A stretch of 32,915 nt of DNA from Bacteroidota bacterium (GTDB lineage: Bacteria; Bacteroidota; Ignavibacteria; UBA10030): the NCBI GenBank assembly GCA_026416125.1, contig JAOAFT010000023.1:1-32915 (forward strand), written 5' to 3'. The notes under the pieces are model-generated. The model was not told the origin of the DNA. It did not search any database and saw only the letters and a list, made by a program, of their open reading frames with translations. Position numbers and translations under genes: made by a program. Positions 4,533-9,154 of the stretch are shown here, one piece after another. Positions within the stretch are counted from its first letter, which is position 1, and every line of letters starts with the position of its first letter.

Positions 4533-5819
4533 TCATATAAAGAATGTATAAGAATTCCCATTCATTACTCCAATTGCACGGCCTGTCAACTTCCAACCAT
4601 GAAATAGGCTATTCTTTGATTTCGAATGGAACGTATTGATATCCACAACCCACTCACATTCAGGATCAAGAAAAGTAAAGTTTGCCTTTTCCCCTTCTTG
4701 TATAAGAATAGATCCAACACCAACAATTTTCCGTGGGTTAACAGACATCTTTTCAACTAGTTCATAGAGAGTTAAAATACCAGTTGTAACAAGGGTTGTC
4801 ATCGATAATCCCACCGCTGTTTCTAATCCGACAATTCCAAATGGTGCAATGGTGTACTCAACATCCTTTTCATCAATAGTATGTGGCGCATGATCACTTG
4901 CAATTACATCGATTGTACCATCCCGTAAGGCATCCTTCAATGCAGCAATATCTTCTTCTGTACGGAGTGGTGGATTTATTTTTGTGTTTGTATCGTAACC
5001 ATCAACAACCGTGTCAGTGAGTGAAATGTGATGTGGTGTTACTTCTGCAGTTATTGGCAGTCCATTTGCTTTTGCTCGACGAATAACTTCAACGGTTCCA
5101 GCTGTGCTAACATGAGCGACATGATACTTTGCATGTGGTACATAACGAAGTAGTACACAATCACGGACAACGATTATTTCTTCTGCAATAGGGGGTATTC
5201 CGGGTAATCCTAATCGGGTGGATTGAAACCCTTCATTCATTACCCCCCCTTTTGCCAATGTAGGCTCTTCTGCATGTTGAATTACAGGCAACCCAAACAT
5301 GGAAGAGTACTCAAAAATCCTACGCATTAATTCAGCACTTGCTATTGTTGAACCATCGTCCGAAAGAGCCACAGCCCCAGCTTCAGCCAGCTCTGCAATT
5401 GGCGCGAGTTCTTCACCTTGTCGACCTTTTGTTGCCGCTGCAATGGGATACACATCAACTAACCCTTTAGTAGCTTTTTTCCCTGTATCTTGTATATACC
5501 GAACAACAGATTCATCATCAATAACAGGATTTGTATTTGGCATACAGCACACGGCAGTAAACCCTCCAGCAGCTGCTGCTGCACATCCTGTTGCGATAGT
5601 TTCTTTGTGTTCATACCCAGGCTCGCGTAAGTGAACATGCATATCCATAAAACCTGGTGCAATAATCTTCCCAGGCAAACTAATTACTTCGTATGAACGA
5701 TCAGCTGTAATGTTTTTCCTGATTTTTTCAATAATTCCATCGACAATGAGAATATCCATTGATTCATCGATCCCACGTACCGGGTCAACAAGGTGAGCAC
5801 CTTTCAGATGTAGTTTCAT
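4533..5819 (-). CDS. pyrC: Dihydroorotase, class I type
   Basis: A 428-residue dihydroorotase, which cyclises N-carbamoyl-aspartate to dihydroorotate in pyrimidine synthesis. Metal-site residues are all present: HVH at about H61/H63 in the MDMHVHLREPG motif, D in SDDG near 154, H182 in QHAEE, H236 in HVS, and D309 in ASDHAPH. The length and the GFTAVCCMPNTNP motif match the bacterial class I (about 45 kDa) enzymes. The AAGGAG at 5825-5830 sits 5 nt before the ATG, and the gene begins 9 nt after pyrB. It is the third pyrimidine gene under the PyrR attenuator. Confidence 0.97.
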   Translation of the reverse strand: MKLHLKGAHLVDPVRGIDESMDILIVDGIIEKIRKNITADRSYEVISLPGKIIAPGFMDMHVHLREPGYEHKETIATGCAAAAAGGFTAVCCMPNTNPVIDDESVVRYIQDTGKKATKGLVDVYPIAAATKGRQGEELAPIAELAEAGAVALSDDGSTIASAELMRRIFEYSSMFGLPVIQHAEEPTLAKGGVMNEGFQSTRLGLPGIPPIAEEIIVVRDCVLLRYVPHAKYHVAHVSTAGTVEVIRRAKANGLPITAEVTPHHISLTDTVVDGYDTNTKINPPLRTEEDIAALKDALRDGTIDVIASDHAPHTIDEKDVEYTIAPFGIVGLETAVGLSMTTLVTTGILTLYELVEKMSVNPRKIVGVGSILIQEGEKANFTFLDPECEWVVDINTFHSKSKNSLFHGWKLTGRAIGVMNGNSYTFFI

Positions 5820-5828
5820 ATGTTCTCC

Positions 5829-6749
5829 TTAATTCGATAAACCAAGTAAATACAGCACAGCCATTCGTACTGCGACGCCGTTTGTAACTTGTTCAAGTAT
5901 AACTGAATGTGGTCCATCAGCAAGATCTGCTGAAAGCTCAACGTCACGGTTAATTGGTCCTGGATGCATAATTGTAATCGGGTGCTGTGCTTTCTCAATC
6001 TTCTCTTTTGTAACGCCAAAATATCGATGGAATTCACGAAGCGAAGGGAATAACCCACTTTTTTGCCGCTCGAGTTGAATCCTCAAGACATTGAGAACAT
6101 CGATATGAGGTATGACATCTTCCAACCGGTGATATACGCGAACACCTAACCGTTCGATGTAGCGGGGTATAAGTGTAGCTGGACCACAAACGGAAACTTC
6201 AGCACCCATTGTTGTAAGTCCAAAAATGTTCGAGCGAGCAACGCGACTGTGAAGAATATCACCAACAATACAGACACGAAGTCCTTCCAACGTTTTATAT
6301 TTTTGTCGCAAAGTCATCATATCCAACAACGCTTGCGTTGGATGCTCATGAAGTCCATCACCAGCATTGATGACATTCGCTTTTACTACCCGACTGAGAA
6401 AATGTGGAACCCCAGCTGAAGAGTGTCGAACAACAACCATATCAATCTTCATAGCTTCGATGTTGCGTGCAGTGTCTTTGAGTGTTTCGCCCTTTGCTAC
6501 ACTGCTTCCTGATGTTGTGAAGTTCACAACGTCAGCAGAAAGCCGACGTTCAGCTAATTCAAAAGATATACGTGTACGTGTGGAATTTTCAAAAAAGAGG
6601 TTGACAATTGTTTTCCCTTGAAGAGGGGGAACTTTCTTAATTGGACGTTCGAGTACCTCTTTGAATGATTCTGCAGTATCTAAAATCAGTGTAATATCAT
6701 CCTTGCTCATTCCTTCCAATCCAAGTAAATGCCTGTTTTGGAGTTTCAT
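5829..6749 (-). CDS. pyrB: Aspartate carbamoyltransferase catalytic subunit
   Basis: A 306-residue enzyme joining carbamoyl phosphate and aspartate, the committed step of pyrimidine synthesis. The carbamoyl-phosphate loop ENSTRTRISFE is at about residues 54-64, HPTQALLDMM and HSRVARSN lie in the middle, and HPGPINRDVEL is near residue 264. Length is normal for the family. A regulatory subunit gene (pyrI) is not present here, so the enzyme may be unregulated by nucleotides or form another complex (inference). It starts 6 nt after pyrR and ends 9 nt before pyrC, which indicates one transcript. Confidence 0.97.
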   Translation of the reverse strand: MKLQNRHLLGLEGMSKDDITLILDTAESFKEVLERPIKKVPPLQGKTIVNLFFENSTRTRISFELAERRLSADVVNFTTSGSSVAKGETLKDTARNIEAMKIDMVVVRHSSAGVPHFLSRVVKANVINAGDGLHEHPTQALLDMMTLRQKYKTLEGLRVCIVGDILHSRVARSNIFGLTTMGAEVSVCGPATLIPRYIERLGVRVYHRLEDVIPHIDVLNVLRIQLERQKSGLFPSLREFHRYFGVTKEKIEKAQHPITIMHPGPINRDVELSADLADGPHSVILEQVTNGVAVRMAVLYLLGLSN

Positions 6750-6755
6750 CTCTCC

Positions 6756-7298
6756 CTACTCCTTCTTCCGATCATGGTTTACTAGATAAACACTGTCATC
6801 ACCGTCAATTTCTTGGAGAAGTACCCGGATCTCATGAGTTTTTGCTGTCGGTACATTCTTCCCAACAAAATCTGCTTTTATTGGAAGCTCACGATGACCC
6901 CTATCGACAAGGACAAGAAGTTCAATCCTCGCGGGTCGGCCAAGATCCATCAGTGCATTGAGAGCTGAACGCACAGTTCTTCCAGTAAATAGTACATCAT
7001 CGACTAAGATTATTATCTTATCCTTTACATCAAACAGGATTTCAGTACTCTTGAGTACAGGTTGATCAAGTCGTCCTCGAAGATCATCTCGATATAATGT
7101 AATATCAAGAACCCCCACAGGGAGTTGCTTCCCTTCAAGTTCGAAAATTTTCCGGGCAATACGATGAGCAAGGTATTCCCCTCTAGTTCGAATACCAACG
7201 AAAGCGAGTCTTTCCAAGTCTTTATTCCGTTCGATTACTTCGTGTGCTAACCTGTTTATCGTTCGTTGGAGACCTTTTGCATCAAGAATTTGTTGCAT
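6756..7298 (-). CDS. pyrR: PyrR pyrimidine attenuation regulator / uracil phosphoribosyltransferase
   Basis: A 180-residue PyrR. The PRPP-binding motif ILVDDVLFTGRTVRSAL (about residues 97-113) is intact, as are the N-terminal RTINRLAHEV helix and the GIRTRGEYLA loop typical of PyrR rather than of other phosphoribosyltransferases. PyrR binds UMP or UTP and then binds a hairpin in pyr leader RNA, favouring termination; many members also convert uracil to UMP. The leader in front of this gene carries just such a hairpin and a terminator (7315-7408), so autoregulation of pyrR-pyrB-pyrC is strongly suggested. A GGAGG at 7305-7309 lies 6 nt from the ATG. Confidence 0.96.
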   Translation of the reverse strand: MQQILDAKGLQRTINRLAHEVIERNKDLERLAFVGIRTRGEYLAHRIARKIFELEGKQLPVGVLDITLYRDDLRGRLDQPVLKSTEILFDVKDKIIILVDDVLFTGRTVRSALNALMDLGRPARIELLVLVDRGHRELPIKADFVGKNVPTAKTHEIRVLLQEIDGDDSVYLVNHDRKKE

Positions 7299-7304
7299 TA
7301 ACTA

Positions 7305-7309
7305 CCTCC
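7305..7309 (-). promoter_or_regulatory. Shine-Dalgarno sequence of pyrR
   Basis: GGAGG on the minus strand, 6 nt before the pyrR ATG at 7298. It lies only a few bases beyond the attenuator's U-tract, so any RNA that escapes termination reaches the ribosome site immediately. Confidence 0.85.
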
Positions 7310-7314
7310 AGAAA

Positions 7315-7350
7315 TAAAAAATCCCCACCTCCATTCTCGTAAGGTGAGGG
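7315..7350 (-). terminator. Intrinsic terminator of the pyr attenuator
   Basis: On the minus strand CCCTCACCTT (7350-7341) pairs with GGAGGTGGGG (7332-7323) to give nine base pairs with one bulged U and a 9-nt loop. A run of T residues follows directly (ATTTTTTAT, 7322-7314). It lies between the PyrR-binding hairpin and pyrR, so it is a leader terminator rather than a gene-end terminator. Its 5' arm can instead pair with the antiterminator strand at 7373-7380. Confidence 0.88.
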
Positions 7351-7380
7351 TTTCTAATAACAGAACTCATTTCTCTCCTT
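7341..7380 (-). promoter_or_regulatory. Antiterminator pairing of the pyr leader
   Basis: AAGGAGAG (7380-7373) can pair with CUCACCUU (7348-7341), seven of eight positions with one A-A mismatch. The left strand shares AAGG with the lower stem of the PyrR-binding hairpin, and the right strand is the 5' arm of the terminator. The antiterminator is therefore exclusive with both, which is the logic of the Bacillus-type pyr attenuator. Pairing was done by eye, without energy calculation. Confidence 0.72.
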
Positions 7381-7408
7381 TCCTATCTCACTGGATAGGC
7401 TTTAAAGG
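7377..7408 (-). promoter_or_regulatory. PyrR-binding hairpin (anti-antiterminator)
   Basis: On the minus strand: lower stem CCTTT/AAAGG, a 5'-side purine-rich internal loop AAAG, upper stem CCTATC/GATAGG, and a terminal hexaloop CAGTGA. The hexaloop fits the CNGNGA consensus of the PyrR-binding loop and UCCAGUGAGA matches the conserved core of Bacillus pyr binding loops (established knowledge). The purine-rich bulge is on the expected side. It begins 20 nt downstream of the tRNA-Val 3' end and lies upstream of the leader terminator and pyrR. Confidence 0.9.
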
Positions 7409-7428
7409 TTTTTTCCACTGATTGCTTG

Positions 7429-7503
7429 TGGGCGCTACTGGAGTCGAACCAGTGACCTTACGCGTGTGAAGCGTACGCTCTAGACCAACTGAGCTAAGCG
7501 CCC
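7429..7503 (-). tRNA. tRNA-Val (anticodon CAC)
   Basis: A complete 75-nt cloverleaf on the minus strand: acceptor GGGCGCT/AGCGCCC with discriminator A, D arm GCTC/GAGC, anticodon stem TACGC/GCGTA with loop TTCACAC (anticodon CAC at 7466-7468), a five-base variable loop, and T arm ACTGG-TTCGACT-CCAGT. The CAC anticodon reads GUG (valine). CCA is not encoded; CAAGC follows the discriminator, so RNase Z plus CCA addition is expected. The pyr leader hairpin starts only 20 nt downstream on the same strand. Confidence 0.95.
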
Positions 7504-7517
7504 GTTATGTCATAGCC

Positions 7518-7546
7518 AATATACGAAAGGAATGAGTAGGAAACAA
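7518..7546 (-). promoter_or_regulatory. Sigma-70 type promoter of tRNA-Val and probably the pyr operon
   Basis: On the minus strand a -35 TTGTTT (7546-7541) and a -10 TATATT (7523-7518) are separated by exactly 17 bp, and the -10 ends 14 nt before the tRNA 5' end. No comparable promoter fits between the tRNA and the PyrR hairpin, so this is the best candidate for the whole tRNA-pyr transcript. Found by inspection only. Confidence 0.6.
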
Positions 7547-7649: not shown

Positions 7650-9122
7650 CTAAAATTTTGCACTCACTGTAACACTTACAACGTGCGAGAGGATCGATTC
7701 GTAAGTTTGTCGTGCACCTAGAACTGAAAATAAGTCACTGGTTCTACGATATGACTTCCAGTCACCTAACGTATAACCAATATGAAGATAAACATCGCCA
7801 GACATTCGAATGCTTGTACCAGCACTGTAGTACACTTTATCATATTTTGTAGTATGTTGATCTTCTTTATAGGGTGATGGGTACCACGCAATACCTCCAC
7901 GGATTTTCATTTCACCGTCAAGGAGTGTAAACTCAGCACCACCCCGTAGGTTGATTGTTTCGCGAAAGAGATCGAACTTTGCTTTTTGTGTTTGGAGCTT
8001 CAAATGACTATTCAGTGTCGGATCATCAGCCTCTAATTCTAGTTGAGTCCAATCAACATATTCAACATCAGCAGCTACAAGAAGCCACTGAACTGGAAAG
8101 AGAGAGAAGCCTCCACTGATTACCATCGGTGTTGTAATGCGATACTCTGTTTCGTTTGTATTTGTCTGCCATAATTGATATCCATCATCAAACTCACTCT
8201 GGTACTTTGTGCCGTATCGTTCTGAAATACTGTACCATGTTGGAGTTCTCAATGAAATTCCAAAACGCAGTTTATCTTTGCTTCGATACAGTAGCCCAAT
8301 AAGAGCGTTAAAGCCACTTACATTATCATCAATCGTTTGTGTAAAGAGAAATCGATCAATGTTCCATGGGAATCCATAACGGTATACATTGTACTTATCT
8401 TCTTCCACATACGTACGATCATAGCCGTAATGACCAGAAGCAATATTCAGAGAAACTCCAAAGGAAATATTCGGAGCAATATCGATCCCCATCCCTATAG
8501 ACCAGTGGTTTAAACCACCATCTTCAAGGATTGTTGCTCGCTGGTTTAGACTGTCCGTCAAAATAGGCCAAAGAAATCCATTCGCAGTGTCAGAAACTGC
8601 TAAGTAGTATGAGAGATCGTTTTCCAAAAATCTCTTTCGTTCTGTTGGACTCATTGCCCAAAGGTCATCTTTAGGAGTGATAACTTCCACATACGAATTT
8701 TGAATATTGAAACCACCAAATGTAGCTGCTGCATTGTATTGTTGCAGACGACCAACTCCAAATCCGAAGGTTAGGCTACCTCGTTTCGTAGGTAGAGGAT
8801 ATACAATTCCAATATTATCAAGATTAAATTTATTGTTTTCGATAGTTTCTTTTGTATTCCAAAATGTGACATTATTACTAAAGCCATTATGAGACAAACC
8901 AAAAGAAAACTCATAAACACGCAGTTGTGCCAATCCAGCCGGATTTGTGAAAAGAGCAGTAAAATCATTTGCTATTCCAACACTTGTGCCTCCAAATCCA
9001 AGAGATTGGGCACCTATAGCTGGCCTGTACTGTGAAAAACGCAACGCATCTTCTGCAAGTTGTGCATGTACAAACGATATTGAAATTGCTACAATTCCAT
9101 AGAGACATAGAATTCGCTTCAT
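7650..9122 (-). CDS. FadL/OmpP1-like (PorV-like) outer-membrane protein
   Basis: A 490-residue exported beta-barrel protein. A signal peptide (about residues 1-20, ending VHA-Q) is followed by RFSQYRPAIGAQSLGFGGTSVGIANDFTALFTNPAGLAQL. This is the N-terminal pattern of OmpP1/FadL/TodX proteins and of PorV-like proteins in Bacteroidota. The rest is alternating aromatic beta strands, and the protein ends in VTVSAKF with a C-terminal Phe, as expected for outer-membrane insertion. The ATG at 9122 is chosen because GGAG at 9131-9134 lies 8 nt before it; the upstream ATG at 9140 has no such site. It follows a lipoprotein gene by 32 nt. The substrate is unknown; hydrophobic-compound uptake or a secretion-accessory role are both possible. 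Confidence 0.82.
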   Translation of the reverse strand: MKRILCLYGIVAISISFVHAQLAEDALRFSQYRPAIGAQSLGFGGTSVGIANDFTALFTNPAGLAQLRVYEFSFGLSHNGFSNNVTFWNTKETIENNKFNLDNIGIVYPLPTKRGSLTFGFGVGRLQQYNAAATFGGFNIQNSYVEVITPKDDLWAMSPTERKRFLENDLSYYLAVSDTANGFLWPILTDSLNQRATILEDGGLNHWSIGMGIDIAPNISFGVSLNIASGHYGYDRTYVEEDKYNVYRYGFPWNIDRFLFTQTIDDNVSGFNALIGLLYRSKDKLRFGISLRTPTWYSISERYGTKYQSEFDDGYQLWQTNTNETEYRITTPMVISGGFSLFPVQWLLVAADVEYVDWTQLELEADDPTLNSHLKLQTQKAKFDLFRETINLRGGAEFTLLDGEMKIRGGIAWYPSPYKEDQHTTKYDKVYYSAGTSIRMSGDVYLHIGYTLGDWKSYRRTSDLFSVLGARQTYESILSHVVSVTVSAKF

Positions 9123-9130
9123 GATGTATA

Positions 9131-9134
9131 CTCC
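9131..9134 (-). promoter_or_regulatory. Ribosome-binding site fixing the FadL-like start
   Basis: GGAG on the minus strand, 8 nt before the ATG at 9122 and overlapping the region just inside the alternative ATG at 9140. It supports the shorter product, which then begins directly with a signal peptide. Confidence 0.7.
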
Positions 9135-9154
9135 AATCATTTCAAGTAAGTAAA

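Follow-up and report, generated by a model that had tools for sequence, protein, structure and literature searches.

How is a pyrimidine operon transcribed when its PyrR-binding hairpin follows directly on a tRNA gene of the same strand? The window (the whole stretch of 32,915 nt that was analyzed) contains such a locus, at which the first-pass annotation had proposed that tRNA-Val is the first cistron of the pyr operon, with a shared promoter upstream of the tRNA and none in between. Comparison of sequences across the order strongly supports this proposal, and we consider it very likely that tRNA-Val and pyrRBC are cotranscribed from one tRNA-type promoter.

Layout of the tRNA-Val and pyr locus

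The features of the locus, in the direction of transcription, are as follows.

7518..7546, minus strand: promoter of the tRNA-pyr transcription unit; TTGTTT (7546-7541), 17 nt, TATATT (7523-7518), of the form TTG-N20-TAnnTT
7429..7503, minus strand: tRNA-Val(CAC), without encoded CCA; ARAGORN and Rfam RF00005 (69.6 bits)
7409..7428, minus strand: 20-nt spacer from the tRNA to the PyrR loop, without promoter motif or terminator; sequence and promoter scan
7377..7408, minus strand: PyrR-binding loop (anti-antiterminator), CCTTT-AAAG-CCTAT-CCAGTGAG-ATAGG-AAAGG; RF00515 (46.7 bits)
7302..7370, minus strand: putative leader open reading frame (ORF), MSSVIRNPHLTRMEVGIFYFWR, with its stop 3 nt 5' of the pyrR ATG
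7312..7349, minus strand: intrinsic terminator, 9-bp stem (7349-7341 with 7331-7323) and T-rich tail to 7312; folding
6756..7298, minus strand: pyrR, bifunctional pyr operon regulator/uracil phosphoribosyltransferase; NCBIfam NF003549 (244.8 bits, cutoff 138)
5829..6749, minus strand: pyrB, aspartate carbamoyltransferase; NCBIfam NF002032 (416.6 bits, cutoff 263)
4533..5819, minus strand: pyrC, dihydroorotase; NCBIfam TIGR00857 (413.8 bits, cutoff 279)

The discriminator base of tRNA-Val is A7429, the lower stem of the PyrR loop begins at C7408, and pyrR starts with an ATG at 7298. The distance of 20 nt that had been read between the tRNA 3' end and the hairpin is thus correct (spacer 7428-7409). 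The hairpin is present, and its position (7408-7377) is just below the interval 7429-7546 given in the first-pass annotation. The promoter claimed 5' of the tRNA, TTGTTT-17-TATATT, is found at 7546-7518; of the 42 tRNA genes detected in the genome, 25 are preceded by a motif of this type, which is present in the rrn leader too. ARAGORN places tRNA-Val(CAC) at 7428-7503 on the minus strand and Rfam at 7429-7503. The gene is the only Val-CAC copy among the 42. Because none of the 42 tRNA genes encodes CCA, we expect an RNase Z-type enzyme to cut after A7429 and CCA to be added subsequently; the candidate RNase Z of the genome is a weak match (73 bits against a curated cutoff of 293). When the leader was cofolded, the tRNA, the PyrR loop, and the terminator each formed independently. 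The gene 5' of the unit, on the same strand (window positions 7650-9140), encodes an outer-membrane-type protein with weak matches to BamG/PorV families.

Conservation of the tRNA and placement of the promoter

Of 100 relatives, 89 have pyrR, and the sequences upstream of the gene were collected from these. A same-strand tRNA-Val(CAC) lies within 400 nt upstream of pyrR at 39 of 67 loci from families f1 (18/31), f2 (5/5), f3 (6/15), and f6 (10/16), and at none of the 17 loci of f5 or the 3 loci of f4. Among the genomes compared, a tRNA-Val gene before the pyr control region is therefore a feature of most families of the order. The first-pass annotation had suggested looking in related genomes for a tRNA gene closely upstream of a PyrR loop, and this arrangement was found: of 35 loci that could be scored, 23 have no more than 35 nt between the tRNA and the start of the loop. 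In L153, L154, and L163 the loop starts 2 nt past the discriminator base, and in L131 and L133 it starts 4 nt past it, spacers that leave no room for a promoter between tRNA and loop. The tRNA is interrupted by a contig end or a gap of N in L128, L137 (only the last bases left), and L168. Longer gaps between tRNA and loop often hold inserted repeats or broken tRNA copies, and in L132, L134, and L166 the tRNA gene is broken, with only a 3' remnant kept beside the PyrR loop.

Chance proximity was considered and is excluded by recurrence in four families. As a rough estimate, the probability that a tRNA gene falls, in the required orientation, less than ~30 nt away from a single given site is 3e-4 (42 genes × 30/4.8 Mb, for a genome of 2.41 Mb). 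On a PyrR tree, the presence of the tRNA changes state 12 times, versus 29.7 times with shuffled labels, which fits an old association that was repeatedly lost; independent gains of the tRNA at pyr loci may also have occurred. Upstream genes differ among most tRNA-bearing loci, the largest cluster with a shared neighbor comprising 10 loci, and since most of these loci have no common upstream gene, the tRNA-pyr pair is not merely part of one long conserved block.

The arrangement appears to be specific to the order. A search for the tRNA-plus-loop pattern in 395 genomes of the phylum and 391 of the class gave convincing matches within the order only; the matches outside it were set aside, as they appear to be tRNA genes followed by other sequence or to be due to chance. 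Among 75 pyrR loci that belong to other groups, none has a tRNA in the 1,500 nt upstream, insofar as the contigs cover this distance. PyrR loops do exist elsewhere in the class, and at 29 such loci from other families no same-strand tRNA was found near the loop, only a few opposite-strand tRNA-Pro genes.

A strict E. coli-type promoter scan missed the window promoter, and the motif used here, TTG-N20-TAnnTT, was instead derived from relatives together with the tRNA genes of the genome itself. It is close to the -7 box TAnnTTTG of Bacteroidota sigma-A (PMC9723704). At tRNA-Val/pyr loci, the motif lies 5' of the tRNA in 26 of 35 cases (1.3 expected from shuffled sequences) and is lacking there in the other 9; within the tRNA plus gap it occurs in only two, L141 and L143, both of f3, and a scan of this interval in the window found no motif. 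Of 42 loci that have no tRNA, 32 carry the motif directly 5' of the PyrR loop (1.7 expected from shuffles). The promoter thus appears to head whatever begins the unit, the tRNA if present and otherwise the leader, and this shift argues more strongly than any other observation for a single transcript. The window itself has, at the level of sequence, the anatomy of a tRNA-headed operon, with a promoter 5' of the tRNA and none before the first protein gene. Related genomes in which tRNA and leader are separated had been named as evidence that would count against the shared transcript. Such relatives do occur (all of f5 and part of f1 and f3); the promoter then lies at the leader, consistent with a shared transcript. 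Two or three f3 relatives (L141, L143, and probably L128) do carry a promoter in the gap, which, like the 9 loci that lack the motif 5' of the tRNA, counts against it.

A rival explanation could be that pyrRBC has a promoter of its own, situated within the tRNA gene or the 20-nt spacer and overlooked by the motif, and that the tRNA is a mere neighbor. Precedent exists in E. coli metY-nusA, where P2 lies at the 3' side of the tRNA gene (PMC6511841), and TTG-N20-TATATT is found in the gap of L141 and L143. In the other 33 of 35 loci, the window included, tRNA plus gap lacks the motif, although it is found at the head of the unit in 26 of 35 loci with the tRNA and 32 of 42 without, and at the loci with spacers of 2 to 4 nt such a promoter would have to lie entirely in tRNA sequence. 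A gap promoter as a general solution was accordingly rejected, and for the window we regard it as improbable. Alternatively, slow decay of gene order could have conserved a neighborhood that has no function, the tRNA and the pyr genes each keeping their own start and stop. The tRNA is indeed missing at several f1 and f3 loci, and the link must therefore be dispensable. Against this explanation, no terminator separates the tRNA from the pyr genes, the interval is often too short for a promoter, upstream neighbors vary among most loci, and where the tRNA is missing a promoter is found at the loop. We consider a functionless neighborhood more improbable still, and cotranscription of tRNA-Val and pyrRBC remains the reading that we favor.

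PyrR control and the leader ORF

The PyrR element of the window matches RF00515 at 7412-7313 (46.7 bits, E 2.6e-5), the sole match in the whole genome. The score is below the curated Rfam gathering cutoff of 54 bits, which only 7 of 83 genomes of the class with RF00515 matches reach, a sign that the Rfam model is a poor fit to this lineage. Among 64 distinct PyrR loops of the order, the lower stem is invariant (CCTTT/AAAGG-type), the upper stem covaries with C-G, T-A, and G-C exchanges, and nearly all loops, the window's included, carry CCnGnGAG. These loops match the ARUCCAGAGAGGYU element of Bacillus (PMC7430163). The window's site has the conserved loop and the purine-rich bulge in a two-part stem, an intrinsic terminator lies between it and pyrR, and a cognate PyrR is encoded with pyrB and pyrC downstream. 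A hairpin with a T-rich tail and a folding energy below -8 kcal/mol is present in 72 of 77 loci. The antiterminator was dropped as the main proof of attenuation: in the window the pairing is weak (-7.8 kcal/mol, with mismatches), and in relatives 17 of 69 beat 95% of shuffles, no more than moderate support overall.

From these elements a course of events can be proposed. The pyrRBC operon would have no promoter of its own; polymerase would start at the tRNA-Val promoter (7546-7518) and read through the tRNA and into the pyr leader without a break. RNase P and an RNase Z-type 3' endonuclease would release the tRNA and leave a pyr RNA whose predicted 5' end lies ~20 nt before the PyrR loop. At high UMP, PyrR-UMP would hold the loop, the terminator would form, and a short transcript would stop there; at low UMP, transcription would proceed into pyrRBC. 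The attenuator would double as terminator of the tRNA transcript and mark its presumed 3' end. Output of the tRNA would be independent of pyrimidines, and the stable-RNA promoter would set the ceiling of pyr transcription. For this organism, we infer both the excision of the tRNA and PyrR/UMP-dependent termination from sequence features.

The first-pass annotation had pyrimidine control exerted by attenuation alone. Translation may be involved too, given a leader ORF for which AAAGGAG, within the loop's 3' arm, is the likely Shine-Dalgarno sequence (SD). An ATG follows the loop's AAGGR by 3 to 13 nt in 53 of 77 loci of the order (13.5 expected from shuffles). For 28 of these 53, the ORF that it opens ends between -12 and +8 nt relative to the start of pyrR, frequently with an ATGA overlap; the other two frames give 1 and 7 such stops. 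These counts and the weak antiterminator of the window would agree with a PyrR that acts mainly on translation, with the SD of the leader ORF masked by the loop, the ORF coupled to pyrR, and the terminator of secondary importance. Set against them are the T-tailed hairpins of nearly all loci and the frame of the leader ORF, which is not constant through the terminator. We think it rather unlikely that translation is the main level of control, a reading that is in any case compatible with cotranscription of tRNA and pyr genes. Somewhat less doubtful, and still offered tentatively, is a leader that combines three roles, in which the tRNA would give the promoter and the processed 5' end, the loop would govern the terminator, and its 3' arm would serve as SD of the leader peptide. 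If so, PyrR-UMP would shut off transcription and translation of pyrR together, on an RNA made from a tRNA promoter.

The leader ORF was rejected as a trait of the order alone, since it is also enriched in other phyla. Of 45 PyrR loops from those phyla (among L034-L110), 23 have an ATG 3 to 13 nt downstream, where 8.9 would be expected, and short ORFs may be common to PyrR leaders in general. At 24 of 30 f1 loci, the 45 nt that precede the loop contain GTTCTTT[GCT], for which the background rate is 0.007 per 45 nt. This motif is the same as the boxA GTTCTTTGA in the rrn leaders of genomes G000 (that of the window), G007, and G012, which suggests Nus-type antitermination in f1 pyr leaders. This boxA-like sequence (e.g., in L009, L021, and L006) occurs with or without a tRNA, and it is absent from the window's own leader.

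Known systems and further tRNA arrangements

In tRNA-tufB-type operons, tRNA genes head a protein-coding operon and share with it a stable-RNA promoter. Unlike at the locus described here, the downstream gene there serves translation rather than regulated biosynthesis, and no attenuator abuts the tRNA. The E. coli metY-rimP-nusA-infB operon is similar to the present locus in that a tRNA is the first cistron and is excised from a polycistronic RNA, and in the trait of terminators between the tRNA and the first protein gene; it differs in its promoter at the 3' side of the tRNA and in having no metabolite-sensing attenuator protein (PMC6511841), whereas here a pyrimidine attenuator follows the tRNA immediately. 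The Bacillus pyr operon (RF00515; PMC7430163) shares with this locus pyrR as first gene, an intrinsic terminator before pyrR, and a regulator of the same family. Its loop has a CCAGAGAG-type sequence, the counterpart of CCnGnGAG, and, in contrast to this locus, it has a constitutive promoter of its own and three attenuators (PMC7430163); the locus described here has a single site, with a tRNA gene and the promoter of that gene in front of it. Both tRNA-headed operons and PyrR attenuators are thus already known, and their direct fusion, kept across several families, is apparently undescribed: in the open literature searched we found no description of a tRNA-PyrR fusion, a result that does not prove absence.

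In this fusion, a metabolic operon seems to have surrendered its own promoter for that of a stable RNA and to have left specific control to a downstream attenuator, which would here double as a tRNA terminator. Closely related pyr loci with and without the tRNA offer a natural comparison, and the arrangement would connect the synthesis of a tRNA with the supply of nucleotides in a way that can be tested.

Several loci of the order carry traces of tRNA replacement. In L166, an intact Val tRNA lies ~700 nt farther upstream of the remnant noted above, resembling an insertion footprint at a tRNA. An intact tRNA-Val lies in or beside a broken tRNA-Val in L005 (about 1000-1210), L125 (about 2130-2320), and L151 (about 2010-2240), in pyrR-oriented coordinates (for comparison, L127, L157, L114, and L135). 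In several families, the anticodon, D, or T loop of the broken tRNA-Val is split by palindromic repeats (e.g., CCGCCTGCC...GGCGGGCAGG), as if a small repeat element carried or provoked a replacement tRNA copy.

Elsewhere in genome G000, tRNA-Arg TCG (L213), tRNA-Arg CCG (L219), tRNA-Trp (L207), and tRNA-Lys (L208) are each followed within about 50 nt by an apparent ribosome site and start codon, and tRNA-headed coding units may be frequent in this genome.
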